Positions 7,986 to 39,000 of a stretch of DNA of 64,000 nucleotides are shown piece after piece. The position numbers and the translations under genes are program-made. The DNA is from a virus: the IMG/VR virus record IMGVR_UViG_3300026292_000004, positions 26,509 to 90,508 of that record; one strand, 5' to 3'. Positions within the stretch are counted from its first letter, which is position 1. The number at the start of each line of letters is the position of its first letter. The notes beneath the pieces were generated by a model that saw only the letters and a list, made by a program, of their open reading frames with translations, was not told where the DNA came from and did no database searches.

Positions 7986-9518
7986 TTAGAATTCAATAAC
8001 AACTTTAATGTCTTCAATCTGGTCGTTAGCACGAGAAATCGTACGTCTATTATCTATGTAGATAAGATTACCAGAGTTAGACTCTATCTCAGGTTTTGCA
8101 TAACCAGAGGTAAATCTCATACCTAGGTCATATTCGGTGTTGTTAATAACACGAGAAGAGGTGTTAGGAACAGCAGGGAAGTTCACATCTGGGTCGCCAG
8201 AAGCACCAGACGAGGAACCTTGAATGGCATTAGAACCATCAAACTCGTTCAAAGAACCAGTAACAGCAGGGAAAATACCATCAACTCTATTTTGATAATA
8301 CTTAAGAACCTTAGTTGTTGAGTTCCAAGAAATAACCTTACCAGTTGCAGTAACAGACTGACCACCCACAATACGAGTTTGTGTAATTGTTTCGTCAGGA
8401 ATGAAGTTACCTTGGAAGGTTGTTGGGAAGATAACTGCTCTTGCAGCAGATAATGTTAGATCAGAAAGAAGTTCAGTAGTACCATACTTCTTAGGATTAG
8501 TGCAAAGACCAATACGACGATAATCGTTATCAATCGGGAAGTCTCCAGCACCTTCATCATATGATAGTTTAGCGTTAACCATAACACGGTAAGCACCCAC
8601 TTCCACTACTGGGTCTTTACCATGACCACCTGGAGGTGGAATGATAACGTCAATTTGACCACCAGTTCCAGTACCAATACCAGAAACTGAGTTAACGGTT
8701 ACTTTACCAAAGGAATATCCAGTACCACCAGATGTCACAGTAGCAGAAATAACACGACCACCATCAACCACGATGGAAACACGTCCACCAGTTCCATCTC
8801 CAGCAATCGCTACGTTATCATATGTACCATTGTTATAACCTGAACCAGATGAAGTAATGACAACAGTGTCAATTTCACCAGCAACAGCGTTAGAACTTAC
8901 TGAAGCATCTGAGAATACAGGCATGTAATCAGCAGAGAAGAACTTCAGAACCTGTGCGACAGGAATAGTATACATATACTTCCAACGATACCCGTCAGAA
9001 GTAGTGATGATGGATGTAGAAGTACCAGTAGGTTCAATGGTAGAAGGCTTACCATTAGGGTCAGCAGGAGAAGTACCGTTATAAATGCACTTATATACTT
9101 GGTAATTGGAGTTAACGACATAGAAGTCAGAGTCATACAACTTAGTAGCACCAGACGATGCTGTGTTAGTTGGTGAGTAGTCATGACGATACATGTCATA
9201 AGTATAACCCAAACCACCAGTAGTTTGTTCTGGGGGAATCCAGTCAATACGACGTACGACTTGAATCGTGTCAGCAGCAAGAACACGCTTCAATGACATC
9301 ATATCATCGTAAGCATCAGAGAACTCATCAAATGAGTCTACCGCTTGCGGCGGTGAGTTTTCGTTGTCCCATTCTTGGGGACGACCAATAAAGATGTATA
9401 GACGATCTCTATCATCACCCGCAGTTGTGTCACTTGCCAGAGGATCTGGTCCTTCTAGTGACTTAATAAACTTCTGGGCTGTAAATATTCTAAATTGATC
9501 AGTAAGTAGTGCTGCCAT
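7986..9518 (-). CDS. 8: Baseplate wedge protein, gp8-like
   Basis: This 510-aa protein has a start (MAALLTDQFRIFTAQKFIKSL) and an early segment with WxPP and SDGYRWKYMYTIP that match the gp8 family of marine T4-type phages. T4 gp8 is 334 aa, so this copy is longer; the extra length is glycine-rich GSGYN/GGTGYSFG beta repeats at about 200-290. In T4, gp8 dimers sit in the baseplate wedge between gp6/gp7 and gp10. The order here (gp6, gp7-position giant, then gp8, then DUF4815) agrees. A TATAAATA late promoter lies 24-31 nt upstream of the ATG at 9518. Confidence 0.75.
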   Translation of the reverse strand: MAALLTDQFRIFTAQKFIKSLEGPDPLASDTTAGDDRDRLYIFIGRPQEWDNENSPPQAVDSFDEFSDAYDDMMSLKRVLAADTIQVVRRIDWIPPEQTTGGLGYTYDMYRHDYSPTNTASSGATKLYDSDFYVVNSNYQVYKCIYNGTSPADPNGKPSTIEPTGTSTSIITTSDGYRWKYMYTIPVAQVLKFFSADYMPVFSDASVSSNAVAGEIDTVVITSSGSGYNNGTYDNVAIAGDGTGGRVSIVVDGGRVISATVTSGGTGYSFGKVTVNSVSGIGTGTGGQIDVIIPPPGGHGKDPVVEVGAYRVMVNAKLSYDEGAGDFPIDNDYRRIGLCTNPKKYGTTELLSDLTLSAARAVIFPTTFQGNFIPDETITQTRIVGGQSVTATGKVISWNSTTKVLKYYQNRVDGIFPAVTGSLNEFDGSNAIQGSSSGASGDPDVNFPAVPNTSSRVINNTEYDLGMRFTSGYAKPEIESNSGNLIYIDNRRTISRANDQIEDIKVVIEF

Positions 9519-12991: not shown

Positions 12992-14176
12992 TTAAGTTAC
13001 GATTACGATTTGGTTGCCCATAGTGGGATGCATGGTACACTGATAATATAATGTTGCTGGTGCATCCATAGGTACTGTGAATGTAGTTGTACCAGAACCA
13101 TCATTAGTCACTCCAGCAGTATAAGCATTACCACCATTTGATTGTCTTATCTCAAATGGATGAACAACATACTGTGAATCATTCTTAAATCTATAGACTT
13201 GTCCTCTTTGTAGATAGAGGATAGGATCATTAGTAGCACTTACAAATCCTGAACCAGTAAATGTATAGTGACTATTAGTTCCATCTTCACCTAGAGTCCA
13301 TGTTAATGTTGGACCTGAAACTGGAATCCAGTCAAATCCATCATACATCAGCATGTCTCCTTCAGCTACACCTGTTCCTTCATAGGAGAATCCACCAGAA
13401 CCAGTATAGTTAATGGTTAAGGTGTCACCAGTAATACTGGTTGTTATAGATGTACCACCAGTAACAGTTAATGTATCAGTTGCTCCAAGAGCAGTTGTTG
13501 TACCAGTGTCAGCATTGATTGTAGCAAATATATTTCCACCGCCAGCCCCGCCACCAGTTCCAGGTCTAAACTCACCATTAGCAGAATTCCAGGTAGGAAC
13601 TTCCCCGTCTGCATAAGTTGTACTTTGAACATTACCAATACTTTGTAATGTAGAAGTAGAAGTGTCTAAGATCTCACGCCATCCAGCAGCTGCTGAATAG
13701 TATGCTTTACCTACATCATTAACATAGGCAAACATTCCTGTATACGTTCCATGTGCAGGAAGATTAGCAGATGCAACATAAGGAGCATTCCACTTTAGAA
13801 ATCCATCAGCACCATCAATAATAGTATCGGTAGCATTAGTACCATTTCTTAAAGCAATATCACCACTTCCATCCGATTGAATTACAATATTACCATTACC
13901 TGAAGATACAATGTTATATCCATTAACGTTTAAATTCTGTTCTAACGTTGCTTTATTAGTACCTTGACCTGGAGCAAAAGCAGTACCATTCCAAGTCAAA
14001 GAATCTCCTAAGTTAGGAGATGCAGTACTTACTAGAAGGTTTCCTGCTCCAGCCGATCCACCTAATGAATCATAGAGTTCTGTGAAATTTTCATTGACTT
14101 TAGTACCACCAGCACGTAGTGAATCACCAGTGCCATCATTAGCTGTAGTACCAAGTGCTAGTAGTTGTTTTGCCAT
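12992..14176 (-). CDS. Fibre-like protein with C-terminal cupredoxin domain
   Basis: A 394-aa protein. The N-terminus (LALGTTANDGTGDSLRAGGT) is a typical tail-fibre attachment or repeat start in marine myoviruses. Residues about 30-260 are low-complexity Thr/Gly/Asn beta repeats. Residues about 285-394 form a cupredoxin-like domain with His339, Cys380, His383 and Met386 (YQCTMHPTMG), matching the Cys-x2-His-x2-Met spacing of amicyanin-type sites. It is placed between two YHYH-domain genes, so a distal tail or baseplate location is likely. The ATG at 14176 lies 18 nt after a CATAAATA late-promoter match. Metal binding has not been shown and is inference. Confidence 0.78.
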   Translation of the reverse strand: MAKQLLALGTTANDGTGDSLRAGGTKVNENFTELYDSLGGSAGAGNLLVSTASPNLGDSLTWNGTAFAPGQGTNKATLEQNLNVNGYNIVSSGNGNIVIQSDGSGDIALRNGTNATDTIIDGADGFLKWNAPYVASANLPAHGTYTGMFAYVNDVGKAYYSAAAGWREILDTSTSTLQSIGNVQSTTYADGEVPTWNSANGEFRPGTGGGAGGGNIFATINADTGTTTALGATDTLTVTGGTSITTSITGDTLTINYTGSGGFSYEGTGVAEGDMLMYDGFDWIPVSGPTLTWTLGEDGTNSHYTFTGSGFVSATNDPILYLQRGQVYRFKNDSQYVVHPFEIRQSNGGNAYTAGVTNDGSGTTTFTVPMDAPATLYYQCTMHPTMGNQIVIVT

Positions 14177-14193: not shown

Positions 14194-14201
14194 TATTTAT
14201 G
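14194..14201 (-). promoter_or_regulatory. T4-type late promoter (CATAAATA)
   Basis: The minus strand reads CATAAATA, one base from the T4 late consensus, 18 nt upstream of the ATG at 14176. It overlaps the stop codon of the preceding gene. The same variant at the same distance precedes two other genes in this block. Confidence 0.6.
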
Positions 14202-15069: not shown

Positions 15070-15077
15070 TATTTATG
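15070..15077 (-). promoter_or_regulatory. T4-type late promoter (CATAAATA)
   Basis: CATAAATA on the minus strand ends 19 nt before the ATG at 15051 and overlaps the stop codon of the giant gene. It would let the YHYH gene be transcribed separately from the 27.7-kb gene upstream. Confidence 0.6.
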
Positions 15078-18000
15078 GGGCGGGTGTACTTGACCATATG
15101 CTTGTTACAGCGAAGGTTCCAACTGTAGTACCTGTACCCGCTGGAGATGATCCTTGTCCAGGAATGTCTCCACTGTCCACGTTGGCAAGATTTTCGGGTG
15201 TTACATTAATAACATCAGTATCAACAACCTCTTCTTTATAAAGAGCTTCTTCACCGTATGCACTGAGATCTGGAGCAGTCCATTCATCAGCAACCACGTT
15301 AGTGATAGTAACACCAGGATAATTATAATTTGAACCAGGGGCGGTTGTATCTACACGAGAAACACCAACCAGTGCTTTAACTGCACCATCAAAACCAGAT
15401 GCACTGTCAACACGGATAACTGGACGTGCGCTGAATCCAGATCCAGGATTGGTTACCTGAACAGAATCAATTCTATTCTTAACGATAGCAGCATTACCTT
15501 GAGCATCACGACCAAATACAGATCCGATATACTCAAATGTTACTAGTGTATTAGAAGATTCAATGACAGCAACTTCTCTATCTTCAGTCTCACCTTGAAT
15601 GTCTAAGAGGTCACCTGCCTCAATTGGAGGAACAATCTCAGACTGCGTAACGTCAGCATCAGAACCAATGTATGCGAAACCAACGAATGTTGATCCTACA
15701 CGAGGAGTTTCTTTGAAAACGACACGAGAACCAACAAGTTCAAAACCGATTCCAGGTTGCTGAATAACACCGTTAAGCGAGATAATGATGTTGTTGTCTG
15801 CGATAATAGACTCAGTTGCCTGTACACCTTCAGTAAGTGCGATAGAGTAGAATGTACCGTCACGCTTAAGGTTGAAGGATGATCTCAATGAGTCAAACTC
15901 AAATGATATGTCATCCAACTGACGCATCTTACCTACGTAGAAACCAGTGAAGGAAGAACCAATGGTAGGTGCTTCGTTGAACTGTATGATGTCAGAGAAT
16001 GCTGTGTATGAACCAGCCGCGCCTGGAGGTTGTAGAATACCATTCACAAAGACCATCATGTGACCTTCAGGATCTGGGAAGTATGGAGTACCGTTTTGCT
16101 CAGTTAGTTTGAACTGTGTTTGTGTACCATCAAATCCAACGAACCAACGCTTAGTACGTCCTACGACATCTATCTTCTCACTAGATGCTGCTTTATATCC
16201 ATCATCAGAAATGATAGTATCATTTCCAGTAAATGTTCCAACAACATCACTTAGATACACACGATTTGTTAATCCAATTTCATCAATTCTACTGACTGTA
16301 CCGTAAGCAGTTGTAGTTGCGTTAACTGTAGTAGATACCTGACCATAAATTATTGGACTTGAAGTTTCACCTAATTGGTATTGACCAATATATTGACCAT
16401 TAGCGAATGCTGAAGATCCTATTGGTGACACGTACAAGTAATTATTTGCATCATCCCATCCAGTAACAATACCATATGCACCACCGTCAATTATTGACTG
16501 ATTATTGTTTGCTTGATAAACATACTGACCAACAGAGAAGTCAAGAGTTGCGTTAGCACCTGTGAGAGTAACACCTAAGCGTGTGTAACCCGTAGCAACA
16601 ACCTTATCACCCGTAGCAATATTTGCTGCTATTGAAGGATGCTTAGTAACATCTAAGTAAATTCTAGTAGCATCTGGGTAAACAACTGAATTCTCTTCAA
16701 ATGCACCTACGACACTCTCAGTATCAATTGTAAGTTTACCACCAGTATTATCAAGAACTGCACCTTCATTCTTATTGAATGCTACGATATCTGCCTTAGC
16801 ACCACTACTATAACCCTTGAATGAGTATCCTGCCTTCATCTCATTAACGAGATTAATAACTTGGAATCTATCAACGATAGTTTGAATACCCGCGTTAGTT
16901 AAAGTACCAACTTCAAATGTGATATTTGGAGCACCACCATTACCTAATAGTGCATCAGGAAGTGTTAATACATCACTAACACCATATCCAGTACCACCAT
17001 TAGCAATTGTAATATTAGCAGCACCTTGATCATCAACAGTTATGTTAAATGTTGCGTTAGAACCATTACCACCTGTAGCAGCGATACCATCGTAAGAACC
17101 TTGAGTTCTATTTACGTTAGCACCTGCATTTGTTAAGTTCGTAATAGATCCAACAAGGTTAGTACCACCTGCGAGAGCAGCACCAGAAGTTTGACCTGTA
17201 ATTCCTAGGTATTGTGTGAATGTACCTGCACTGATTACAACGTCCATATAACGGAAGTTATCATCAGAAGAAGTAGCATAAACAACACCTGTTATAGCAG
17301 CGTTACCAGTGATTTGTATGATTTCACCTAAAGCGAAGTCTGCATTACCACCACCTAGAGTAACTTGATCTGCTTTGAAACTAAATCTCTTAAAGATCTT
17401 AGCAATTCTTGCTTCGTTACTTGTAACTTTCTCAATTTCAGCATAACTATCAGATCCAACAGCATAGAAGTGATCAGAACCAACTATTTTTTGTCCAAGT
17501 CCTACAGGAACGTTTCTAGTACCACCAGCCACGTACGTAGTTGTTGGAAGTGTTACACCAACATAACCAGTTTGTTGCTCATAGAAACTATCATCTACAA
17601 GTTGTGACTTATAAAGTCTGATAGTATTCTTGATACGGAACATTACTTCAGGTGTATCATAGTATATGTTCAATTCTGGTTTGTAAGCAGGTATTGTTCC
17701 AGAATCAGGAGCAGGATTAATCAAATTATTATTGAGTTGCTCCTCAACAAAGTCCTCAAATTTATCAAGAATATAGTTCTTAATATTAAATTCATCAGAG
17801 ATATAGAACTTCTCACCAGCCTCAGACTGATAGATGTCTAGGAATCCCTTATTAAGTTTAGCACCCCAGATAAATGAACCCTTAGTACCATCACCCTCAG
17901 AACCACCACCAGCTAAAGTACCAGTATTATTGAGCATGTATTCCTTCATAGTGATAGTAGAAATACCGAATGGAACACGAATTGTTATGAATGGTCGGAA

Positions 18001-21000
18001 CCAACCAAATCCATAAGGTTTAACACCCCAGTATGTTCCCTTCATACCATTTGAATCTGAACCATCACCAACAATTACGTTACCGTTAATGAATAGTGAA
18101 GGACCAATAGCACCTGTTACTGCATCCCATGTAAATTCTGCCTTATCGGTAGCACTCCATGAAATACTATGACGGAACTTATAATACTCATCTTGCTTAA
18201 CAAAGCAACTGAATGTATATTCCTGATAGGATAGTGAAGAACCTTCGTCAAACTTGTTGATAGCATCATCAAATTTGATTGTGTCCTTATCAAAGGTATC
18301 ATATGTTGGTAGTGTAAATTCTCTTTCAATTACCTTAGCACTAGTATTAGCACCAGGAATATACTTGTCAGCAGTCATAGTGCCGTCTGGTGCAACACCT
18401 ATATCATTAGAAATAGTACCACCAGTTACAGTCCAACCACCAGCATCAAAAGTCTCTCTTTGACCACTTGGCCAGATATTATCTGATTGAGTCTCACCTG
18501 AGACTGGTGATTGTATTAGACGTATATTTTTTAATGCTGCGGTATTGTTGAGGGTAGCAGTAGTTACTGGACCTTCAATACATTCTTCATCAGCACTCGT
18601 AAATGTATGAGTGAAATCACCACCAGTTTGTATCGCATTAATAGCAGCACTTTGTCCAGCAACAAATGTATGTGGGTACTGATCAGCAGTAGCAGCAATA
18701 CCAACATTAACAATAATAGTACCATCTTGCTTCTTAATACCGTTAGGTGTACATGTTACGTACGTGTGTAAAGAAGTATCAGGTGAAGCACCAATATTAA
18801 CAGAAAGCTGATCAGCACTAATGATTGTAGGTTCTAACCACTTTTGACTCCAAGGATCAGTTGATCTTGGATAAGCATGAACACTAATCTCATTATCTAA
18901 CTGACACTTGAATGTGATTGCTCCATCCTCAAATTTAATCAAATCACCAGCAGAAAGACCGTGGTTGTTGATGTCAAGTGTTAATATACCATTATTAGGA
19001 TTATATGAAGCAGTATCAGGATCATCTACATTATCTGTACCTACTGATTTAATGTTAATTGACTTATTATAGAATGGGTCAGTTGTACGTGGGTATGTTT
19101 GGTTACCACCACCTTGAGTACAAGTGAATGTCAAACTATTAGGTGCAAGTCTAATACTAGTACCAGCAAGCAATCTATGACCAGTCATCACTGCACCAGG
19201 TAGACTGGAAGCATATGTATGAGATAATGGTACGCTAATAGCACCCTGACCACCGTTAACGTTAACTGTAATAGTTGTAGAACTAGTTCCTGTAATAGCG
19301 AGTCTGTTCTTGGCAGCATAATCTATACCACCTACAGCACGAGAACCAGTTAATCTAGGATACGCAGATTGAGTTTGATTACTTTGTCCAACATCAACAG
19401 TAACAGTTGTTCCAGTTACAGCATCAATTGATAATATTTGTCCAGATGCAGGGTCGGAAGAACGAGGATAAGGGTGCTGTGTAGCATGACTATCAGCATC
19501 GCAAGTAAAGATGACTGCCTGATCATCAATCTCAAGAGTATCAGAAGTAGTATAACTATGAGATCCAATCTCCAATACTAGAAGTCCAGTAGCAGGAGTA
19601 TATGTTGTACCAGCAGCAGCAGTCTTTTGACTTAAAGTTCCACCAACATCAAAGGTTAATCCATTAGTTACACCAGTAACAAATGTATGAGTACCTGTTG
19701 CAGCAGCACAAGTAAAGGTGAGAGATTCTGGTTTAAGACCAATGGTATCATCAGTAGTCAATCCATGATTAAGACCAACAGTCAACTCCATATCACCACT
19801 TGTGGCATTGTATGTTGCGTTAGTTACATCAAGTGCCCCAACTGTCAACTCCATATCACCAGTAGTATGGTTATAATCAGCAGCAGTAGGAGTATAAGTT
19901 CCAGCAGTTGTCTTACCAACATCAACCGTAATAGTATTTGTGGTTACAGATTCAACAGCAATATCTTTCTTATAGAATGGATCAGTTGGTCTTGGATATG
20001 AATGGTAACTACTATCATCATCCATTGCACAAGTAAATGTCAATGAATTTGGTTTGATTTGAATTACATCATTCTGTTTCTGGAGACAATCACTAAGTGC
20101 TGTCTGGAAAGTATGAGCAGTAGTGTTAGAAGATATTCCTACATTAACCACAAAAGTATTTGTAGTTACTCCTGTAATAGTCAACCATCTACCACTAGCA
20201 GGGTCAGATGATCTTGGATAAGTCTTAGTTACACTATTGTCTTGAGCACACTTGAATGTTAATGAATTATCATCAAGTTTAATCTTATCACCATTACTAA
20301 ATCCATGACCACTTAAAGTGATAGTCATTGCACCTGTAGCAGGTGTAAAGGCAGCACCAGTTGGTGTATGCTTAGTATATGGTGTCATTCCATGACCAGC
20401 AATGGTCAGTACCAATTTACCTGTTGAAGGAGTATATGATACATTAGTTGGACTATAAAGTGTACCAATTAAATCAGGTGTAGAAAGTAAATCATAGATT
20501 GCATCATCTTTAACCTGAGTTAAGAATGCAGTTTCTTCTTCCTCTTCCCAAACTCCACCCCAGTCAGCGATGGTAGAAGACCTAATCTCTTCTTCAAAGT
20601 ATTCATCACCAACAAGTATTTGTAGTGCTGATTCACGACCTTGCTTACCAGAAGGTACAAGAATCTCAATTATAGTTTCAATTAAAGTATCAATAGCAGA
20701 TTGAACATTAGCACAATCTTGAGCAGTATAATCAGTACTATAACCATCATCCTGAGAATCAGTTATAGTTAAATCTGTAACAGCAGGAATTATGTTTTGA
20801 TCAGTAAATCTACCAACATAATGTTCTGGAGATAATTGACCAGCACCAGTACTCTGAAGTAAGTTATTAACTGCTTTCTTACAAAGGAATCCTACTCTTT
20901 CAATTGCCTCAGCAGTTTGAGCAAGTTGATCTTCAACCTGTACAATATTTTGAGATGTATCAAGGAACTTCTTAGCAGCTTCTACAGAACTGTAGTTACC

Positions 21001-24000
21001 ACCAACAAGAAGGTCAGAAGCAATAGAGTCAACAATAAGAGTCATATCTCTGACACACTTATTCTTACCGTCAGTATCGCCACCTGGATAATTAAATACT
21101 CTGACATCATTACTACCAGCATCCTGATAAGTAAATTTCTCTTGCATTAAACCAACTGCTTCATTACCAATGTAATCCTTGTTAAAGATCATCAAATCAG
21201 CAGCATCAGCATATCTATCACCAGTTGGTGAAAGAGTACTATTCATTAAAGTAATAAGAGTATCAATAGAGGTTTTAACATTAGCACATCCACCACCATC
21301 AACAGTAATTCCAGCAGGAGGAATAATAACATTAGTAGAGTAATTAGCAACTAGAGTTCCGTCAATTGCTGCCTTAGCATAGAATGCTAAACGCTCATGA
21401 GCATATAGTGATTGTAGAAGTTGTAGTCTAATGTGAAGTATCTCACCATTAGAACCAAGATAGAATCTAAAGGCAGTAACAGTATTTGCATTACCACCAT
21501 ACTCTAAATCTTCTGCAATAGCATCAAGAATTAAACCAAGGTCAGTCTTACAACGTATTGTACCAAGACCAGAAGCACCACCTTCGTTTCTAGGCATATC
21601 CTGTACAAGATCAGGATAGCGATTAAGCATATCACCAGCAGTCTCGTCAACAATAACAGTTGCATTAGCACGAATTAGATTCGCGGCATCCTTATATCTG
21701 TTAAGTGCATCTGGATTTAATTGATTACTTACAAATAAGTCATCATCTGGGAATTCCTTATCACAAGTAAATTCACTAGTAACATAAGCATCAACTACAC
21801 CACCACCAGTTTCACTAGTAGGAGCAGTTCTAGTTACAGTACCAAGATGATCACTTGGTGTTAATGAATCTGCATTAAAGATAGTATCAGAAATAATACC
21901 AGTGTATGTTGTGATAGCAGTTGCTACATCCTGACAATAAGGATTAGCGGTATCTGTAGTGATTGTATTATCAATTACCTGCTCATAACCATGATCACCT
22001 GTGATTGATATAGCGTCTCTACGCATCACATTGATCATGAAATCACGAACCTTACCAATTGCCCATACAGTCTCACCCTCTTCACCTGAAATATGATTAA
22101 TAAGTATATTATTAGTATCTGCACGATTAACATAATATGCAGCAGTATCCCAAGACTTACTGTTACCTTCGTTACGAAGATCATAGCATATTGCCTTAAC
22201 CCACTCCTTAGCATCTCTAACACACTTAGAGAATGATGGATGAGTTCTTTGAATAAAGTTAACTGAACTTGGATATTCAATTGTTCTTAAAGCACCAGGA
22301 TCAGATAAAGTATCTGTCACGATCTTCATCAAAGCATCAAGACGTGCATTTGCTTCAGGATATCCACCATAAACGAATGGAATATTTGAATTAGTTTGCT
22401 GAATTTCACCGTGAGAAGTAATTGCATTATCTTCAGAACTTACAAATGTATGTGCATAACCACCACCAGTCTTAACAGCACCAGCAGCAGCACTCTGGAA
22501 TACATGAGTATAGTTACCACCAGCAATTACAGCACCAGCAGATGCACCGATGAATGTATGTGCTGTAGGTGAACCTACAGAAGTAATTGGTTTTACATCA
22601 ACTGTAATAGTTCCAGTCTGTGTCTCAAGACCATTAGATGAAGCACTTATAAATGTATGTTCAAAATCTCCAATACTAGTTTGACCAACTTGAACATCAA
22701 ATGTATTATCAGTTATATTACTGATTGCTGTCCACTTATTACTAATAGGATCATTTCCTCTAGGATAAGTATGAAGTGTCTGATGTAAATCTTGATTACA
22801 TGTAAATGTTAATGAGTTATCTAATATTCTAATCTTATCTTGATCAGTAAATCCATGATTAGCAATAGTTAGTCTTAAAATACCAGTAGAAGCAGTATAT
22901 GTTGCACCTGTTACTGTGTGCTGGTTCTTACCAATAGCAGTAATAGGAAGTGCTCTCTGCCAAGCATAGTCAGCACCAGATGGTGTACCACCACTGTAAC
23001 TAGAACCTGTGCCACGAGGATATGCAACCTGTACAGGTGAACCACCGTAAGTACACTGGAATGTTAATGAACTATCTGCTAGTTTAATACTCTGTGCTTC
23101 AATTAAGTCATGAGTTCCGATATTAAGTACCAAATCACCAGAGGTGAAGTTATAAGTTGCACCAGCAACATCATATAGAACTTGAGGTGATGCACCAACA
23201 TTAACTGTAATTTCACCAGTCTGCTTCTTAAGAGCATTACCTACACAACTGTTAAAGGTATGAACAGAAGTATCTGGTGACTTACCAATTTGTATGTCAA
23301 ATGTATGTGTTGTTAGGTTCTCAATTGGGATCCACTGAGATGCAGAAGGATCTTTTGGTCTTGGATATGAATGATATGAAGTATCACCATCTAACTTACA
23401 AGTAAACTTCAGAGCTTCGTTATCAAGTTTAACCTGATCACCAGCAACCTTAATACCATTAGAAGCAGAAGATTGCCATACATGAGTATAGTTTCCACCA
23501 GTTCTAACAACAGAAGTTAGAATACTATTGTTTACAGCATTAACGAATGTATGTGTATAGTTACCACCACTTGTTATAGCATTAGATGAAGTACCACCAA
23601 CCCATGTATGTGTTGATACGTTAGAAGAAATACCAACGTTAACAGTAATAGTTGTACGAGTTACACCATCAACATAGATTGTTCTATCATAGTATGGGTC
23701 TCTCTGAATTGAAATACCATTTGCAGTAGCAGACTCAAATATATGAGTATCTGGGTTTGTAGAAGGTGCAAGATCTAAAACTTGAACTTTAAACGTAGTT
23801 GAAGTTACATCAAAAATTGGTAACCATCTACCACTAGCATAATCACTTCCACGAGGATATGAGTGGTTAGTAGCATTACCATCCTTAGCACACTTGAATG
23901 TTAATGAATTATCTGCGATCTTAATCTTCTCACCATACTTGTAACCATGAAGAGGTACAGTCAATGTCAAATGTCCTGTAGCAGGATCATATGATGCAGT

Positions 24001-27000
24001 ATTAACTGTAGAAGTATCAATTGTATTTCTTGGATAAGTATGAGTTGTTACACCATCTGGTTCAGCGAGAGTAGCATCTTGCTGACACTTGAAGGATAAC
24101 TTATCCTGTCCAATCTTAATACCTTGTCCTTTCTTAATTCCGTGGTTATGACCAACAGTAAGAACCATCTCACCTGTATTTGGTGAATAAACTGCATTAG
24201 TTACATCATGGTTAACTAGAGGTGTTGTACCAACAGGAACAGTAATTGTATTAGCATCTACAACAGTAACATCTAACCACTTGTTAGCAACTGGATCTGT
24301 TGAACGAGGATATGCATGAACAGTTTCATGATGATCCATGTCACATGTAAACTGAAGTGCATCCTCAGCAATCTTAATTCTACTTGTACTTTCAAGTCCA
24401 TGACCAGTAATAGTCATCTGAAGAGTACCGTTACCAGGATTATATGTTGCAGCAGTAGGTGTTAATCCTACAGCAGGAACAAACTTATGGGCAAACTGGT
24501 TACCACCAGATCCTACATTTACATTAATAGTAATAGTAGTTGGAGTAACTCCCTTAATATTCAATGCTGCATTATAAGCAGGATCAGTTGATCTTGGATA
24601 CTTATGAGTAGTAGCATAACCATCATTAGAACATGTAAATTCTAAAGATTCTTTTGCTAGTTTAATAGCAGTTCCAACCTTAAGATCGTGATTACCAATC
24701 TCAAGTACTAAATCACCACCAGTATGATCATATTCAGCATGAGCAACATGGAAATCTTTAAGAGGTGACTTACCAACATTAACTTTGAATACTGTAGTAC
24801 TGTCAACATCTACATCTAACCACTTACCGAAAGTAGGATCACTCTTACGTGGATAGGTCTTATTACCAGAACCCATTGCACAACTAAATGTGAATGCACC
24901 TTCTTCAAATCTTACACGAGCACCGTTAGCAAGACTATGAACACCAGTTGTAGTAACTGACAATTCTCCAGTTGCAGGGTCGTATGTTGTTCCAGAAGCA
25001 CCTGTTAGATTAGTTGGTCCACTCCAACCATGATTTTGAATATCAAGAGTTAGAACACCTGTTTCAGGATTGTACTTAGTACCAGCAGTACCAATACCAA
25101 CATTCATTGTAATGTCGTTTCCAGCCTTAGTGATTGGAATAGTTCTACTCCAAGTAGCATCTGAGGTTCCTGTTCCTAATGTAGTAAAGATTGGGTCGGT
25201 TGCTCTTGGATATGCATGGTTAGTAGCATTTTGATCAAGATCACAAGTCATTGTTAGTGAACTTACCTTCATGTTAATGAAGTCACTAGCAGCAAGTGAA
25301 TCTGTACCATCAGCACCAACAGTAAGAACTAGGTTACCAGTTTCAGCAGTATAAACTGCATTAGTTACTGTATAAGTATTGCCTGTAGCACTAGCATCTC
25401 TGATACCGCCACTAAGAGCAGAAACAAATGCATGGTTACCAGCAACTACTGTATGTTGAGTTTGACCAACAGCAGTAATAGGAATATTTGTGTTATGTAC
25501 TGGATCAGTTGATCTTGGATAAGTCTTATTAGTATTCTGACTATCCATGTTACACTGGAATGTCAGAGAGTCAGTATCAATCTTAATAGCATTACCAACA
25601 TTCATATTGTGCTTACCAATATTGAGTGTTAGATTACCATCAGCAGGAGTATATGTAGCAGCAGATACATCATGTCCGACTTCAGGAGAAGCACCAACAT
25701 TAAATGTAACGTTACCATCTTGTCCTAAAAGTCCATGTGGAGCATGAGACTTGAATGTATGATTATAAGCACCACCATTGTATACAACTGCTCTTGATAC
25801 ACAATTGAATACCGCAGAAACAAATGTATGAACTGTATTATTAGAAGTAATTCCAACGTTAATAGCAAATGTATCTGTAGTGACCTTACCAATCTTCATC
25901 CACTTACCGCTAAATGGATCGGTCTCTCTTGGATAAGAATGCTGTGTCTTATTATCGTCAGTAGCACAAGTGAATACTAAACCAGCATCAGCAACCTTGA
26001 TATATTCACCACTTGCAAATGTATGACCAGCAAGAGTTAGAGTCATCCAACCTGTAGCAGGATCATAATCAGCATCAGTTGGAGTATACTGGTTGTTAGC
26101 ATTAACAAATTGATGAGTACTTGTATTGGTTGGAGTAGTACCCTGTAATGCATTAACCTTAATAATACCACTCTGATACTGAAGACCATTAGCAACAGCA
26201 CTGTCAAATGAATGAACAGTAGTGTTAGAAGAAACTCCTACGTTACACTTAAAGGTATCAGCATCTACTACCGTTACTGTAATCCACTTACCACTTATAG
26301 GGTCAGTAGATCTTGGATATGCATGAGTACCACCACCAGCAGTACAAGTAAACACGATTGAACTGTCTACTATTTTAATTCTTTGACCAGAAACAAATCC
26401 ATGAGCAGCAGATGTAATTGTTAATAAACCTGTAGTAGGTTCGTAAGTTGCACCAGTTGCTGTCTTAGCATTAGTTCCAATATCAGTAATCTTAAGGAAC
26501 TTATTGTATGCAGGATCAGTTGTTCTTGGATATGACTTATTAGTGATGTAGTTATCACTGTTATGGTTACAAACAAAGTTTAGAGAGTTGTTTGCAATCT
26601 TAACATACTCACCAACAGAGAAGTCATGATCTCCAATAGTAAGTTCTAGAACTCCAGATGCAGGTGTATAAGATGCACCAGTAACACCAAATCCTTCAAT
26701 ATTTTCACCAGTACCAGTTTCAATACAGTTATTATCAGCACGAACAAATGTATGTCCAGATGTATTAGAAGATACACCAACGTTAACAGTAATCTTACTG
26801 TCTCTTCTTATAATACCATTTGCAGCAACTGCTGTACAGTTATGATTAGAAGTGTCTGAAGACTTACCTATTTGAACATCAAAACTATCTGTAGCAACAG
26901 CATCAATACGTAACCATTGACCACTAGCAGGGTCAGTTGGACGTGGATATAGATGATTACTACCGTAACTATCAGTATTACACTGGAAGGTTAAGGACTC

Positions 27001-30000
27001 ATCAACAATCTTAACGTATTCACCGACAGTGAAATTATGACCTGTTTGTCCAATTGTTAGAACACCTGTAGTAGGTTCGTAGTCAGTATCTGACTGAGCA
27101 GCAGTATATGGTGTACCTTCATACTTAATAGGAATTGAAGTATCATATACTTTGTCACGTTTCTGTTGAATACCATCAGCAACACCAGAAACAAATGTAT
27201 GAGTGTAGTTACCACCAGTCTGTACAGCACCAGCAGAAGCAGAAACGAATCTATGCTCTGTCTGATCTGTTGAAGGAGCAGATGGAAGAACCTGCATACT
27301 AATAGTCATGTCCTGACCAGTAACACATCCAGCAGTACAAGATACGAAAGTATGCTCTGTTGCGTTAGTAGAAGGTACAGAAGCAAGAATCTGAACATCA
27401 AATGTATCAGGAGTTCTATTGAATACAGTTAACCACTTACCACTTGATTCATCAGTTGCTCTTGGATAAGAATGTACTGTGTCATGATTGTCATGATCAC
27501 ATGTAAAGCTAAGAGCATTGTTTGCAATCTTGATCTTATCACCATTCTGTACAGGATGATCCTTAATAGTTAAGGTTACATGACCTGTATTAGGATTATA
27601 ATCAGCAAATGTAGGTGTTAAAACAGCATCGCCAACCGCAGTGATAGCAATGGAAGTGTTGTATGTAGCACTATCATTACCATTATTTCTAGGATAAGTC
27701 TTAGTTGTTGCGTGATTATCGTTGTTATAATCACAAGTAAATGTTAATGAATCCTGAGCAAGTTTAATTGCATCACCCGCAACCATTCCATGAGTACCAA
27801 TGGTAAGTTCCATGATACCTGTGGTTGGGTTGTATGCAGCATCAGTTGGTGTATAGTTTACAGCAGGTGACTTACCTACATTAACAGTAAATCTTGTTGT
27901 ACTAGGAACACTCTCAACTTGTAACCACTTATCATATGTTGGGTCAGTCTGACGTGGATATGCCTTATTAGAACTACCACCGTCCATTGTGCAATTAAAT
28001 GTGATTGCACCTTCATTAAACTTGATCCAATCACCTACTTGCATACCATGTGTAGCAGCAGTAGTAACATCTAAAACACCAGTTAAAGGAGCATAAGTTG
28101 AACCAGATGCTGCCTGATGAGTATCAATAGCTGTACGAGGATAAGTATGCTCAGTAGCATTACTATCTAAAGCACAAGTCCAAACTAATGAATTGGGTTG
28201 AATCTTAATTGTCTGACCAGCAGCAAGACTATGAGTACCAATATCAAGTACCATATCTCCTGTAGTAGGATCATAAGTACCAGCAGAAGGAGTAAATGTG
28301 TATGATAAACTCTTACCTACATTAACTTCAAAACTGTCTGGATTTGAATTAGAAATCTTTAACCAACGACCATTCCAAGGATCAGTTGTTCTTGGATAGT
28401 TATGATCAGTATGATGATCATCTTGATCACATGTGAATACTAATGACTTACCAAGAATCTGAACACTATTACCATCTACAAATTTATGTCCAGGAACCCA
28501 TAACTGAAGTATTCCAGTCTCAGGATCATAAGTTGCATTATCTATAGTATGAGATGTAATACCAACTTCTTTAATTGCATTCTTACGTAAGTATGATTGA
28601 TCTTCAAGACGAGGATATGTGTGCTCAGACTTATTACCGTCCATTGCACAAGTAAACTTCAATGAGTTAGCAGTAACACATGCACTACCATTAGAACGAG
28701 TAGAGTTAACTATAAAGTTGTGTGATTTACCAATATCTACTGTAAGATCACCAGATACAGGTTCATAAGTTGCATCAGATGCCTTAAATCCATTATACTG
28801 AAGAACTGGAGAGTTGTTGATTACTCTCTTAGCAATATCTCTTGCTTCATTAAATACACGAATTGAGAAACTTTCTTTACCCTTAAGGTGATCAAGTTTA
28901 GCATTATTAACATATAATTTAGCAGCATCATAGGTCTTATTGTTAAAACCATATGTTAGGTTATAAGAAATATTACGAATAATATCTTTTACGTCATCCT
29001 TACAATCTATAGGACCAGTTCCTGGAGGTGGTTCTGGTGAAATACGATCATATGCTTCAGCAGCAATGAAATCTAAGTTACTATTGATAACATCGTAGAA
29101 TTCCTTACCGTAAGTAATAGGTACTTCAGTATCAGGATGAGGAATGTGTAATTTAACAAACTCTTTATCAGTCTGATAAATTGCTTCATTAGCAATCAAT
29201 TCAACGTTGTTTAATATCTCAGTTGAAGCATCAAAGAATCTGAAGGTAGTATCTCCAGTTAAGAACTGATCACCTTCGTTCCATGTAGGTACTCCAGACC
29301 AATCTTGGAAAGTAGTAGATAGGTTAGCACCATCAAAGTGTACTAAGAGGAGAGTATTAATATCTCCTTGATGCATATAAGTTGCATTAGTAAAGTTAGT
29401 AGTGTAACGCTTATTATTAGATACTCTTAATTCATCAACATATCCTTGGAACTGGTTAGCAGCAGCGTGATCTGCACCAACCTTAATTGGTTTTGTAGTA
29501 CCATAATCAGTAGCATTAGACCAAGTAGAACCTACCTGAGTTCCATCTAAGAACATTCTATGATTGTTTCCGTCTCTAGAAACTGCTACATGATGCCATG
29601 TATTTTGAGTTACAGTACCACCAGTAATTACATCAGCACCACTAACATGGTATTCTAATCCAGTACCATCAAGTCTTATGCAAGGTGATGCTTCTGAAGC
29701 TTGAGTTCTAAAGTCAATTAAATGCTGAGTACCAGTAACACTAGCAGCATAGAACCAACACTCAACTGTCCACTCACCATTTCCAAAACCAAATTCAGTT
29801 GAAGTTGGAACTGAAACATAAGCAGAACCATTCAAATATAGAGATGCACTACCAAATTTCTTCTGTAGAGTTGCATTAATAGCACCACTTTGAGCAACAG
29901 GAACGTGTAAATCTGTACTACGACGTGCTACCTTACCAAGATAAAGGTATTTACGTGCATAGTTAGTACCAATTACTTGAGCAGTACCATTCTCACTACG

Positions 30001-33000
30001 GATAATATCACCAGTTAAAATTAAACCATCAGGAGTAACTTTAGGTTCATCATATGCAAGTTTGTATAGACGAACTGTTTCTCCATCAATTAAATCGCCT
30101 GAGATGTTAGAGTAGTTAACAATGTGGTTACGAATATCTTCGTCAACTGTAAACGTACCAGCAGCATTATTATACTCTAGAATTAAGTTACTTACAACTT
30201 CAGAATTAGGGAACTTACTATTAAATTCAGTATTCTTATCATTAACATCAGTTAGTTGTAACTGAGTCTGTGAAACATTATCAAGAATAACGTTCTGGAA
30301 ATTAATATTAGTAATTCTGTTGAATACTAATCCTTGGAAAGTAGATCCTTCAGAAATAATAACTTGGTTATTTGGTTCATTAGTTACAGGATCTCTGTAT
30401 GCAGAAATACCAATAACTTCAGCAACAATATTACTCTTCTGACCAATGATTATATCACCAATAACAATATCAAATAAACCAGCAGTAGACTGATAAGTAC
30501 CAGCAGTCTTACTTAATAATACAGTATCTCCAATCTCAATAGTTGTTCCAAAGACATTACTATCAGTTTGGTGACCTACAACAGCAGTTCCATCAACACC
30601 TCTGTTAGCAGTAACAGTGTTACCAACTATAGTTGCCACCTCAAATCTCTCAGAATCAATCTGATAAACTCCACCAGTATTAGCAACAATAGTAACAGTA
30701 GCATCTTGATTACCACCACCACTAATTGTAATTACATCTCCAAGAGCATATCCTGTACCACGTTCCTTAATCTTAGTTGCAGTTATTACTCCACTACCAT
30801 CTGCATCAACAGTAACAGTCATTCCAGTACCAGATCCACCTGATGTAGATACACCATCAATATTATCAATGTATCCAGTACCAGCAGTAGTTAATGTTAC
30901 CTTAGAAAGTGCATATCCAGAAGCAACATCAAATGTGTTACCAGATGCAGAAAGACCAGCAGGGATAGTAGTTAGAACCTGACCATTATCACCTTCTAGG
31001 TTAACTCTTTCAATCTTAGCATTGTCCCCTCTAAGGTTCTCAATATCTTCTTTAAACTGGAATAAGTTAGTATTTGTGATAGGATCAATACTATCAACGT
31101 TTGCAGTAAATCCTGTAGCAGATGAAGTGATAGCCTCACCTTCATATGTAAGAGTTGTAGCAGGATCATCAACCTGGAAAGGTTGACCAGCAGTAGTCTT
31201 ATAATAGAAGTCAACAGTTGTTAAACCAGTAGCAACAACAATTGCCTCATAATCAGTTATAATACCTCTAATAGTACCACCTACAAGTGGGAAAATACCA
31301 GAAATAGTACTTAAATTCGCTCTATAAAGAGTTTTAAACTCTAATGTAGCATTTGAATACTGAACATTAGCAGGAGGTTGAGGTGGTGATGAGAATACAA
31401 CATTTGATCCCTGAACAGTAAATGCATCTCCAGGAGACTGTACAATACCATTCAAACTAATTAAGAGTTGATTAGCAGATGCAATAACAGGTTCTGTTAC
31501 AACATTACCATCTTGGTTAATATTTTGAACAGTCAATCCAAATGAGATCTTCTCGCCATCAAACTGATCTGAAATATCATTAATCTTCTGAACAGTAGAA
31601 GTTAGAATCTGCTCGGAAGAAGTCAAATTCTTCTGTCTGAAACGAACCTCAGTGTTATCAAATTCAGTATAAACTGGTTCAACTAGAGTAAAGTTCTGTA
31701 GATTTGGAACAATAGCAGATTCTGCAAGGTTAACTGACTTAGTAAGTTCAAATGCAGTCTCTTTGTTCTCAATAGTTGATTTTTCAACTAATCCCAATTC
31801 ACCAAATACCTTAAATCCAGCAGGGTGAACGTTAGTAATAAGGATGTCTCTCCAGTCAGATATTGAAACAGGAGCCTTAACACTATAGGAGAAGTCCTGA
31901 TAGAAATAAGAGTCTTGAATCTTCTGAATGATTTCTGAAGGTTTACCTACATCATCAACGAATCTACCTGGAGTTGTAGTGATAGCACCAACTTCTAGGA
32001 CACCCTTAGCAATACTAAAGTTATCAATTGTACCAGATGCCTTGGAAATAGTACCAGTAACAATCTGATTCTTACTAAATGTACCAGTATAATCAACAAT
32101 CTTAAGAATTCTAGGTCCAATTTGCCAACCATCATTCTCTGAAACGTATCCAGTTGCAGTTGCATTTTCTAATGTATCACCTTGATAGATTAATTCACCA
32201 GCAAGGAAACGACCAGTAACAACGTTTGCAGTAGCAGCACCACCGAATGAATCTGTTAAAACGACCTGTCTACCAGTACCAGCATTAGTATATGAAATAT
32301 AATCACCAATTGCAGCATTATCTTTAGTAATTGCTAAACGCAATTGATCATTTTCTAGTGAATTACTAATACCAGAAATAGCATAATATGTTGTATTGGC
32401 ATTCAATCTACCGAAAGATGAGATTGGTAGTTCTGGATCATCTCCACTACCATCATCATTAGAAGTTAATGTTACAGCAGAACCATTTACAATACCATGT
32501 GGGAACGAGAATTGTAGTAAATTAAGGTCAAGGTTAACAACATAGTTAAAGGATGACTTCAAAGTTACAGCAGGTTGTGAGGAGTAACCTGCACCTGGAT
32601 CCTTAACTTCAATAGCATCAATACGTCCGTTCTTAATAGATGCCTCAGCAGTTGCTCCTGAACCTCCACCACCAGCAATAATAACAGCAGGAGGGGTAGC
32701 ATATCCAGAACCTGGGTCAGTAACAGTAATACTATCCAGTATGTTTGTACTAGTTAACTGAACGTTGACTGGGAATGTGATTTCAGGACGTAATGTATAG
32801 TCATGAGTATAATCAAAACCGAAGTTGTTGTTCTTAAGTTTCTTAATCTTACCGATCTTATCTGCTTTAACGAAGACAGATGCACCAGTTCCATTTGGAG
32901 GAATAACAACAGTTAATTCTGCACCAGAACCAGTAAGTCCAGCACCTAAAATACCAGTGATAGACTCAATGTCAATAGTTGCAGTAGTATAATTCTTACC

Positions 33001-36000
33001 TGGATCAGTAACGATTACCTCAGCAATCTGACCTGGAATGTTGTTACCTTCATCATCCTCACCATCAGCAACAGTAATATTAACCTTACCACCTTCTCCA
33101 TCACCACTAATAGGTACTCCAGTGTATTCTCCTACAGCATATTCAGTACCTGGTTCAGTGATTGCAACTCTTTCAATCTTACGATTGGAGACAATTTGTG
33201 AAATAACAGGTAACTTCTTGTAGAACCCACCACCATTTACTAGACGGATATCTCCAATTGGTCCAACTGCTTTAGTTGAGAATGTTGTATATTTAACTAA
33301 ACTTGCTTGAGCAGTACCTTCTGGTTCCGAAGTTAATGGGAACTTAAAGATTGTATCACCAGTAGTAATAGTACCACCACTAGTAGAGTATATTACGAAA
33401 TTGCCGTTATATGGTGTAGTTACAACATCCATGTAAGTACCAGCATCAACTGGAGATGTATCACCAGTTTTTGATGGATCAAAGTAATATGATATATTTG
33501 TTACATCATTATTAATAGAAATCTGAACATAAGGTTCTGGTTGGTTTCCAACCTGATAACCTGGAGTTCCAACACGAGTAATTGAGTTGAATGAATATTC
33601 TAACTTAAATAGGTTATCCTTAGAGAAGGACATGAAATATCCTTGCAAGGATGTATCACCAAGCATAAACTTATACTTGTGCTGATAATACATCTTAAGT
33701 ACAGGATGCTTGGCATATATGTCAATTGCCGAAGCAGCAACAGGTAAACCAACAGCAACTGCTCGTAAACCAACAATAAATGATCTAGTGCTTAAAACAT
33801 TAGTAACATTGAATGATCCATTAAATTCCTCAAGATCATTACCAGAAATTAATAGATTATCTCCAACTTTATGGCGATGTGCTTCAGCAGTAGTAAAGTA
33901 AATCTTATCAGTATTAGCAGCATCATCAAGGATTATAATCTTCTCAAGATTAGTAATTAGAGTAATCTGAGTTACAGCAGTCAATTGATTAGGTGAAGCA
34001 CCAATTGTTAACTGAGTTCTATCGGCATTCCAAGAAACAGTATCTGAAGTTGGAGTAATAACACTTCCAACAATATATGGAGATCCAGCAGGTGCAGTAG
34101 CATCAATTCTTACAGTATAATCATTAATACTATATTCCTTAAATCTAGCAGATAATCCACCAGGAATGTCAAATATGAATGTACCTTGTCCAGCAGTAGC
34201 ATCATGATCCTGATTAGCAAAGGTTTGTGATGCAATTTCATTAACTTCAGTTCCAGTAGATACAATTTCTCCAGTATCTTCCCAACCTACCCAATCAGTA
34301 GCAGTACCGTAACTTGCAACATATACACCAGTAGAATCACTATCTACAATAGTAGCAGTTCCTATAACCTGCCCACCAGCATTCTTTTGTTGTAATTGAG
34401 ATCCAACATTAAAAGTTGCAGGTTGATTGAATGTGAATTTAAGAATATTATCTGCTTGTATAGCATCAACAGTCTGAATATAAAACTTACCCCAAGTTAG
34501 TGGAGTTGCTTTAACCTTTCTACCACCAATAGCAGGTATAGTAGCAGTTCTAGTAGACCATACATCTGTAGTAGATGATATAGTTACAGAGTCAAGTACA
34601 AGAGTTGAGTTTGCATCATTGTAGTCTAGAACCTGTAAACCTTCACCTGCAAGTGTTAATGCTCCTGGATTAATTACCTGATCAGTAACATTACTGTAGG
34701 TATATGCAGCAGTATTGAATTGCCACGTAGTATTAGTTCCAGTAAAGTCTCCTTGACGACTAGTATCAACATTCTTATCAGTCTTAAGTATTAAACTGCA
34801 ATCAACAGCGTAAGTATATTTCTGGAGATAAGTATTAAAATCAGCAGTAGTAGAAGGAACTATAACCTGTATTACACGGTCAGTAATCTTAAATCCATCA
34901 ACATTAAATGATCCAGCAGTGGTAACAGTCAATCCTGAAGAAGCACTCTGCCAATTAGGTGAGTTACCCATGTAAATCTTAGCAGTAGTTGCAATATTGC
35001 TATTTCCTGGAAGAGTTCCTGTACCTACTTGAGTTCCATTAGCATATACAGTATAGACATTACCATTCTTAGTTAATGCAATATGAACATAACCAACGTT
35101 GTTAATAAGAACATTATCAACACTAGCAATAGCACCAGCAGTTCTTTGAGTAGTAGCAGAAGCATACATCTCAATCCGCTTATTACTACGGTTTAACATG
35201 ACCGTAATACCTGGTTCATTACCATGTCCTACACCAAATAGGATATGGTGACTAGATCCAGCAGTACCTAATCTAGTATCTTGCTGATCATTAGATTCAT
35301 CAACTGAGAAGAATCCTTCAATTGTCCAATTACCATTAACATCAAATGAATCCTTGAATCCCCAAATACCTGTATTATTGCCTGGTTCTAGTTCAAAGTG
35401 AGTATCTGCCCATGCAGATCCATCCCAAGCATCAATCATCAAACCACCAGTACTACCCTTACCATTAGGAGCACCACTAGTAATATTAGAACCTTTATAG
35501 TAATCTCCAATAAGATTTCTATTAGTAATGTTACCTGTTGTATCTACAGGTTCAGTTTCACTAGTTTGTTCAAAGTTAAAGAGTCCAATGACTTCATTAC
35601 GGAATGCTTGTCCTACAAAAATTGGGTCACCAGAAGCATCTGAAACAAAATCGTTAATTTCAAATCCAACTATATTTCTAGTAAATTTAACTACATTAGT
35701 AGAAATTAAAGTACCATCATACTTAATCTTGGTAATTTCACTTTGCTTACGATATGCATCATACTCAGCAGTAGATTCGTTAACCTCATAGTTACATGCA
35801 ACGTTATACTGTCCGAATACATCAATATTACCACCAATTGCCTTTAAATTTCTCCAAGTAGTTCCTCCAGTAGGAGTCCAACGCTTACCCCAAACAACAG
35901 TGTCACTAGTAGTTACTTTAGTAACAATTATTGAATTTGAGTTAGATGCAGAGTATGCAGTACCAGAAACATAGAAATCTCCAAATTCGTCAATATCAAA

Positions 36001-39000
36001 CTTAGGATCCCAGAAATTATAACTGGTTGCAGTAAAGTTAGTAACTTTGTCTACAGCAAGTTGGAATTGTTGTGCTTCACAATGTGCAATAGCAAATGAC
36101 TTCTGAGGACTAGTATTAGTAGGTGCAACCTCTAAAAGAGCATAGAATTTACCATTATCAGGATTATACTTAATATCTGCTACTTTTTCAGAAGAATCGG
36201 TACTAGCGATCTTTCTCTTTTGTTGAATAAGAAGGTTTTCGTTGAATACAATCAAGAAAGCATCATAAGGGTTAGAAGTGTTAGTATTGGTATAACCACC
36301 CATACAGAACTTATTTTCACCAACCTTAGTAAGTGCAGTTACTATATCTTGACGAGTAGAACCTGAAATACCAGCAATTTCCTTCTGATACTGTATTCCT
36401 ACATTAGCACCACCTGAAGATTGATTGAACTTCATCAAAACAATATCAGGGTTGTAGTTAATATTGAGTGAATTTGGTTTTGTAGTACCACTTACATATA
36501 CATCTTGAGTATCACTAGTAATATCAACATATATTGCAGCAAAATCACAATAAGTATCTTGACCACTTGGTTGCTCAGATCTAGCAGTTTTAGACCAAAT
36601 TAAGTCTCCAGACTGAGAATACTTAGCAACATAACCTACTCTGTTGTTATATTCATCTAATGTATTACCACAAACGTAATAATCCTTAGTAGAATTATCA
36701 GTGAATATAGAATTGGCAACAGTATTCTTTAAATTATTTGTATTGTTAAGGAAGTATTCTGCCTTCTTAAATGACTGAGGATGTGAAATTACTAATTTTG
36801 GAGCAGTAGTAAACCCATTACCAGATCTAATAATATTAAATTCTGATACAGTACCATTACCAGTATCAATTATTGGAGTAATAGCAGCATGTTGTCCTAC
36901 ACCATCAATTTCAACACTAATAGGTACATCATCATTATATCCAGTACCAATCTGAGTAACATTAATTTGTTCAATACCATCAACGGCTTTAACCTTATAA
37001 GTCTCTAATTCACTTGCTGAATTTGGAGTATAATCAATAAGAACTCTATCAGTAGCAAGAAGATCATGAGGTTCAGCACATTCCACAACACCATGAGGAA
37101 CATCATCAATTAACTCATAACTGTAAGAACTAACAGATTTACCTTCAATTGTTCTAACAACAGCAGATATACCATATCCTTCAGTATCAGTGTTATCAAA
37201 GACCAAACGGTCATTAACCTGATAACTATCACCTGGGTTCTCTACAACAAATGATGAAACAGCAGCATCCTCAAATTTAGTCGTTGTTTCAACTTCAATA
37301 TCAACTTTAGAGTCAAATCTAACTTTAGGGAAGTAGTCAAATAATTCTAACTTGTTTTCTTCAAGTAAAGATCCAACATCTGTAAGTTCTTCAGCAGTTG
37401 TTGTAGTATTAGTGATTTCATAGGTAGCGCGGAAACCGACGTACTCAATGTCAGTAATATTAGCACTTTGTGAAGTTCCGTTATTATCATAAGTAAAATC
37501 TAGTCCAATATATTGATCATAAGTGCCATCAAATGCCTTATGGAAATTTTCATTAGAAATTGCTCTTACTAGAGCAGTATTAACTCCAAGTCCGTTATGA
37601 AGAACTTGTACAGTAATTGCAGTAGTGCTAGGAGCAAATTGACCGTTATTGGTAACAAATGCAGGTACAACATACTGTTGACCTTCTGCCATTGCAATGG
37701 TAGACTGATCATATGTTAACCTGAATACTCTATCATCTTGACGAGTTGCTAAACGATCTCCATTTTGTTGGTAATTAGTATCAATTACTTGGTCACCATC
37801 AGCATCTTCCCAAATTGGGTCAAATGTTAACTCTAAACCATCTTCTGTAGTTAAGAGATCAGCAGTTGCGTTAGGTGTACGTTCAACATCAATGTCAACA
37901 TTCTCATATGGGTCTCTATAACGAATAACACCAGTAGGAATATTTTGCTGAACAGCAGTTGCAGCAAGGTTCCACTTATCTACACTAGAGTTAAAACTAG
38001 GACCAATAATGTATGGGAATACTGGATTACCATCTTCAGTAGCATCAATAGTAATGAAATACCCATAAACACCTTCTGGGAATTCAGGAGTCTTACCAAA
38101 ACGACCATTATAGCGATCTAAGTCACCAACACCGAAGTTATAAGTATAATCTTCTACAAAAGTACCAGCAGGGAATGTATTAGTAGGTGCAGTTCCATAA
38201 TATGAATCTGGGATACCATCATCATTACTATCAGTTAGAATTACAGTTTCTCTACCATAAGCATCAATTGCAGGTAATACAGGACCACCAGTTCTAACTG
38301 GAACTTGATTAGTTACAGAGTTATATACTAACTCAGTTTTAAGACTATAACTAGGTTCTAAGCGACGTACATTTGAAGATTGGTCAGTAGGATCAGCATA
38401 TCCATAAGGACCATAAATTGGGTTACCATCATATGCCCATCCAAGAATAGGTGAGTGCTCAATGTTAGAAGTTGCTTCAGTTAACTTACCATTAGCATCT
38501 TCAATCAAATTATCACCAAGAACGTATCTAAGTCTCTTAGGATTGCTTAAGTGAGCATATTCACCACCATATTGGTTGTTTAGACCAGAGAAAACAGATC
38601 CTTGAGCATCATCAAGAACAGTAGTAGGAATATACCCACCTCTTGTCTCATTTCCGACTTGTAATGGTTTTTGCTCAGGACCAGCAAGGTTATAGTTCCA
38701 ATCTTGAACAGAAGCGGTAAATTTAGCATCTTTACCAACTGAACTTAGAACAATGATTGTAGTTCCTGATTCGTAGTTAATACCACGGTTACTGATAGTA
38801 ATACTTGTAACACGACCAGCATTTTCTCCATCAGTGTCAATAATTGCTTTAGCAACAGCACCAAATCCAGTACCATATATTTCTACTGTAGGAGGTGTTG
38901 TATATCCATTACCAGCGTTAATAACAGCAATTGAGATAATTCGTCCATTATTAACGATTGCTTGTGCCTGAGCACCAGTACCAGAACTTAGAGTAGCAGT

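Follow-up and report, generated by a model that had tools for sequence, protein, structure and literature searches.

A giant gp7-slot baseplate protein of marine T4-like cyanophages carries an array of small β-barrel modules with a putative role in glycan binding

T4-like cyanophages are very common in the sea, yet little is known about the way in which they recognise Prochlorococcus and Synechococcus, and the annotation of their largest baseplate genes goes no further than 'structural'. Here, we analysed a 64,000-nucleotide stretch (hereafter the window; positions 26,509 to 90,508) of the 90.5-kb viral record IMGVR_UViG_3300026292_000004, in which a single uninterrupted open reading frame of 9243 amino acids (15073..42804, minus strand) encodes a giant baseplate or virion structural protein. 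Profile matches and gene order identify it as the gp7-slot baseplate protein that marine T4-like cyanophages (Kyanoviridae) encode at this position. Computation resolved part of it into a repeated unit, the YPR module, with a confidently predicted fold, a likely sugar-binding remote relative and a copy number that depends on the phage. We infer, as a reading we hold to be evenly balanced, that the modules, small barrels with a hairpin insertion in the gp7-slot protein, endow the baseplate with a multivalent array for glycan binding. This host-adhesion hypothesis is directly testable with single purified modules. Conservation of one cysteine in all 653 distinct modules poses a separate, simple puzzle.

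A hidden Markov model (HMM) built from YPR segments of the giant protein identified 25 modules across amino acids 4673–8017 of 9243 (window 28788–18754, minus strand), each at an E-value between 1e-38 and 1e-19, far beyond chance and in agreement with the roughly 25 copies counted in the original prediction made from the sequence of the window. The string YPR itself occurs 26 times in the giant protein. The array is discontinuous, with block 1 (modules 1–20; 22642..28788, minus strand, amino acids 4673–6721) separated from block 2 (modules 21–25; 18754..20376, minus strand, amino acids 7477–8017) by ~750 residues without modules and partly helical in appearance. Within this gap, a module-free segment (20545..22416, minus strand, amino acids ~6797–7420), helical by eye, is partly similar to residues 4622–4777 and 4872–5348 of the S-SSM4 protein; it is of a C..DV..I.YDL.YG.N type, of which a related shorter copy precedes the array (window ~28790–29010, amino acids ~4600–4670). 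Paralogous modules within the window share a mean amino acid identity of 39% and a maximum of 61%.

The motif first proposed for the module ran F-x-C, Asp/Asn, His, YPR and TDPxxxKWL. Its core is borne out: Cys is present in every window module (25/25), Asp or Asn follows three residues later (four in longer loops) in 21 and His stands two residues before YPR in 17 (the others having Lys in six cases, Val in one and Gln in one), with all three residues together in 16/25. The tail of the motif is less strict, as only about two thirds of window modules have TDP or SDP after YPR and few have an exact KWL, so that TDPxxxKWL is best regarded as a loose consensus.

An AlphaFold prediction of one module, suggested with the original prediction as a check, was run for module 10 (25810..26097, minus strand, amino acids 5570–5665) with 125 aligned modules, and returned a small β-barrel of eight strands (predicted local distance difference test (pLDDT) 95.5, predicted template modelling score 0.85). 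Modules 14–15 (24196..24762, minus strand, amino acids 6015–6203), modelled jointly, reached a pLDDT of 85.6. In module 10, the Cys/Asp/His/YPR segment (FTCATDDNKTQHSYPRETDP) forms a β-hairpin; each module carries such an insertion of ~20 residues in the barrel, holding the Cys, Asp, His or Lys, YPR and TDP residues. Foldseek against the PDB placed phi92 endosialidase at ranks 1–3 (prob 1.00, TMq 0.57, E 0.11), and VIA aligned the model with residues 424–501 of K1F endosialidase (Z 6.7, root-mean-square deviation (rmsd) 2.1, 73 residues) and with the FCCH domain of UBA1 (Z 6.8, rmsd 2.5, 71 residues), although at Z < 8 such likeness can reflect a common arrangement only. Profile comparison points the same way: with hhalign, the 125 modules matched six endosialidase barrels (Prob 80, E 1.4e-5) with the HGL..GD and F.V motifs in register and a gap spanning the FTC...YPR.TDP block. 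The commonest low-threshold Pfam match was to End_beta_barrel, PF12195 (12/125 modules, best E 1.3e-3; best E 2.3e-4 with aligned module relatives), with E1_FCCH, PF16190, matched by 5/125 modules (best E 0.012), and a local endosialidase-barrel HMM scored above 10 bits in 108/571 modules, compared with 0/571 shuffled and 8/571 reversed sequences. Structure and profile comparison agree on a remotely related small barrel of the endosialidase-barrel/E1-FCCH type with an 'HGF..GD.I.I ... TF.V' core. In our reading, the module is remotely related to the endosialidase barrel and carries an inserted hairpin, but it is not a member of PF12195, because the curated threshold is not reached.

The endosialidase β-barrel (PF12195; K1F ~424–501, phi92 256–333) also belongs to a virion tail protein, may have a like fold and carries its HGL..GD..NF and FTV motifs in register with those of the module. 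It differs in lacking the ~20-residue Cys/Asp/His/YPR hairpin and in its setting, a sialidase tailspike, with a single match in that of K1F and no array. The FCCH domain of the E1 ubiquitin-activating enzyme (PF16190), a probably similar small barrel with weak Pfam matches, is a cellular enzyme domain and likewise has no YPR hairpin. A match to iota-carbonic anhydrase (E 0.007, and 3.8e-4 over the whole chain) was rejected, as its E-value sums three repeats of 4–9 bits each and the match covers half of the module. Elsewhere in the giant protein, at window ~39760–39912 (amino acids 965–1015) and ~33769–33903 (amino acids 2968–3012), a barrel motif of the form HGLLVGDQVTI...NGTYLV...TVFKY occurs without the YPR hairpin and gives weak matches to the endosialidase-barrel HMM.

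The original prediction recognised no named family for the module. This holds for NCBIfam, which gave no match to the array, and for Pfam at ordinary thresholds. It does not hold for phage protein clusters: PHROG 701 matched the giant protein at amino acids 5–3962 and in its C-terminal half (E = 0), as did PHROG 18802, PHROG 19630 gave a profile match at E = 0, and PHROG 1276 matched the module region in 23 stretches (E = 2.1e-246). PHROGs 701, 18802 and 1276 already contain the giant protein, without function annotation. The protein family was thus already known but without explanation, and the limited open-access literature searched yielded no apparent description of the module fold or the hairpin insertion.

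The modules are maintained individually. Contigs L009, L010 and L011 carry them in the same order as the window, with orthologous modules 97–100%, 83–100% and 58–92% identical to those of the window, respectively; the shared order in L009 and L010, at 83–100% identity, led us to reject an assembly artefact. Orthologous modules are more alike than paralogues, and the array is therefore old, with every copy maintained separately. Because the ratio of nonsynonymous to synonymous substitution (dN/dS) across the array was ~0.20 against L010 and 0.36 against L011, module residues are under purifying selection, as the original prediction had supposed from the divergence of the copies at the DNA level. 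The choice between His and Lys before YPR is also fixed by position among these relatives, with one exception (module 13).

The number of modules varies widely among phages. Proteins of 6,600–8,600 amino acids with YPR modules occupy the same slot in P-SSM4, P-SSM7, S-SSM4, S-TIM4, ACG-2014d and P-RSM6, annotated as gp7, 'baseplate wedge initiator' or virion structural protein. In the sequence stretches examined for each phage, we counted 25 modules in the window, 17 in P-RSM6, 10 each in P-SSM4 and P-SSM7, six in S-TIM4, four in S-SSM4, three in ACG-2014d and two in S-SCSM2R, with 31 module hits in L031, a 12-kb fragment. P-SSM4 gp7 (PSSM4_080), P-RSM6 CPXG_00128, S-SSM4 CYXG_00059 and P-SSM7 PSSM7_090 belong to the same family, share the slot after gp6 and bear 4–17 copies in those stretches, without an assigned function or domain; the window protein is longer than all four and richer in modules. 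At the other extreme, S-SZBM1_208 (6619 amino acids) occupies the same slot with no modules at all, despite 50% (N-terminal) and 44% (C-terminal) identity to the window protein, and has been detected in purified virions by 71 peptides (PMC9146016). In S-RIM44, Sf-CH1b and S-H9-2, modules are found instead in a separate tail-fibre-type gene of ~3,500 amino acids. Since their number ranges from 0 to 31 or more, and since they have been relocated to a separate tail-fibre gene in some phages, the array is a variable accessory of a backbone that, in one relative, is a virion protein. YPR-type modules in a separate tail-fibre-type gene occur in L091 (17514–27935), L092 (17508–27998) and L095 (16494–27104), where several lack YPR yet keep the Cys (FTCTMDGNKTEHALPD). 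Megablast against phages gave no match, a search of a plasmid collection gave none, and 45 pattern matches in a bacterial genome collection included no relatives, in a search reaching close relatives only. A link to host-coevolution mutations in S-PM2 (PMC9910659) was dropped, as the S-PM2 stretch that holds most of S-PM2d088 has no YPR modules.

The N and C termini of the giant protein are collinear with the same-slot proteins of P-SSM7, P-RSM6, S-SSM4 and S-SZBM1, and the C-terminal region (15232..16899, minus strand, amino acids 8636–9191) is kept in every family member compared, with or without YPR modules (51% identity to P-SSM7; 44% to S-SZBM1_208 over amino acids 8652–9195). A short Baseplate_wedge match lies in the N-terminal part (40591..40731, minus strand, amino acids 692–738; PF23786, E = 3.2e-10, 40.4 bits against a cut-off of 27). 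T4 gp7, a peripheral wedge protein present in six copies per tail (PMC3004832), lies in a like slot between gp6 and gp8; the putative relationship is suggested by slot, by this PF23786 segment and by the annotation of the P-SSM4 homologue as gp7. At ~119 kDa, T4 gp7 is many times smaller than the window protein.

The original prediction placed Cys, Asp and His close to YPR and put forward the one Cys per module as a possible metal site or cross-link. The three residues are probably near one another. In the model, all three lie within one β-hairpin, whose DSSP strands (40–44 and 52–55) fit the register set by covariation pairs 37–50, 39–48 and 43–47, with Leu36, Phe38, Cys40, Thr47, His49 and Tyr51 on one face. 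Across 279 non-redundant modules, Cys and the Pro of YPR are present in 100%, Tyr in 97%, Arg in 96% and the Asp of TDP in 94%, compared with 82% for the Asp after Cys and 68% for His, with Lys in its stead in 24%. Few features of the module are as constant as the Cys. This constancy is not a product of search bias, since a search model with the block from Cys to YPR masked still recovered Cys in 653/653 distinct modules (66 of them without YPR); nine apparent exceptions, read by eye, proved to be shifts of the alignment, the Cys itself being present. Where YPR repeats had no Cys close by, they were truncated copies, longer-loop modules with the Cys beyond the test window, or unrelated.

Four explanations compete with glycan binding, and we rank them in declining likelihood as a passive spacer, a covalent cross-link, a metal site and an enzyme. 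A metal ion bound by Cys, Asp and His of every module, whether as a stabiliser or as carried metal, would suit three residues that share one hairpin, are inferred to be close and are all present in 16/25 window modules. Yet such a site is poorly supported and, in our judgement, very improbable, because 24% of the 279 non-redundant modules have Lys in place of His and 18% lack the Asp, and these losses are independent (Asp is kept in 168/190 His modules and 54/66 Lys modules); nor are Lys modules decaying, as the identity of this residue is fixed by position across relatives. The same inconstancy of His makes a catalytic Cys-His-Asp triad, with each module a small enzyme, barely credible. All three types of residue occur, and near each other in the sequence, but the nearest matches in structure are barrel domains, not Cys-enzyme folds, and Pfam gave no enzyme family above threshold for the array. 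A covalent bond of the Cys, such as a disulfide or a Cys-Lys (N-O-S) link, stiffening modules or joining neighbouring chains, fares somewhat better but is still improbable: the Cys is invariant, the position inferred to lie diagonally opposite on the hairpin holds His or Lys in >90% of modules, and a gp10–gp7 disulfide has been suggested in T4 (PMC3004832). Against this, no evidence points to such a cross-link, the single conserved Cys per module is inferred to face the core, leaving no conserved partner thiol, and Lys occupies the diagonal in 24% only, with Gln, Val or Gly in others. That the Cys performs chemistry in every module by any such route, whether a self-formed covalent bond with the neighbouring His or Lys or a thiol or metal site, we regard as a long shot; if true, ~150 baseplate sites per particle would be reactive or loaded with metal and might serve, for instance, to carry metal or to stiffen a very long adhesive arm covalently.

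The more serious rival is that the barrels are inert and lengthen the arm that joins the gp7-like N-terminal part to other domains, with copy number setting reach, not stickiness. Copy number indeed runs from 0 to 31 or more while the termini are conserved, and the low mean identity among modules suggests no obvious shared ligand site. We nevertheless consider a pure spacer rather unlikely, as one hairpin holds five near-invariant residues (Cys, Tyr, Pro, Arg and Asp), the nearest structural relative is a ligand-binding barrel, and each module's own sequence is kept in orthologues. We favour the glycan-binding array because the K1F barrel binds polysialic acid, as one of three sites that do so, and is a hotspot of host discrimination (PMC12632334). 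A concanavalin-like lectin domain, Laminin_G_3, directly before the array (29413..29832, minus strand, amino acids 4325–4464; PF13385, E = 8.8e-27) also counts in its favour. The array would extend from the rim of the baseplate like beads on a string, each binding glycans with low affinity and directed at lipopolysaccharide or other sugars of the host surface. Under the T4 stoichiometry of six gp7 copies, a particle would have ~150 barrels, and copy number and loop sequence could tune host adsorption. Cys, probably on the core-facing side of its own strand, and Asp, which may cap the hairpin turn against the following Thr, would mainly keep the inserted hairpin in shape. Several points weigh against a glycan-binding array. 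Glycan binding is proposed by analogy with K1F; Foldseek found no PDB match at E < 1e-3 and the VIA Z values lie below 8, and such values can mean a mere common arrangement. Pfam at E up to 0.1 returned no family in the C-terminal half or the array, and the curated cut-offs of PF12195 and PF16190 were not reached. The endosialidase barrel lacks the inserted hairpin, so that conservation of its binding site cannot be taken for granted; the protein detected in virions is a slot relative without modules (S-SZBM1_208); and, were the Cys purely structural, more variation than 0/653 would be expected.

The genes around the giant protein follow the order gp6, giant protein, YHYH protein, gp9/10-like connector, another wedge protein, a protein in the gp8 position and a DUF4815 protein, the same as in P-SSM4, P-SSM7 and S-SSM4, and gp6-[giant]-gp9-gp8 is common to many cyanophages. 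Upstream lies the gp6 baseplate wedge protein (42825..44798, minus strand; PHROG 219, Pfam Gp6-like) and downstream are the gp9/gp10-like fibre connector (12992..14176, minus strand; PHROG 677, Pfam T4_gp9_10_N) and the baseplate wedge subunit in the gp8 position, as in P-SSM4 (7986..9518, minus strand; PHROG 438, E = 1e-230). The separate YHYH-domain protein (window 14197–15051) adjoins the giant protein, which itself contains a YHYH domain (38041..38577, minus strand, amino acids 1410–1588; PF14240, E = 1.1e-25). Upstream of gp6, window 45666–46160 encodes a Cys-rich PAAR-like protein (PHROG 281). Further along the window are a GIY-YIG homing endonuclease gene (51291–52262, plus strand), on the strand opposite to the structural genes, two adjacent 2OG-Fe(II) oxygenase-like genes (52546–54130) and a SAICAR synthetase-like (purC) auxiliary gene (62658–63356).

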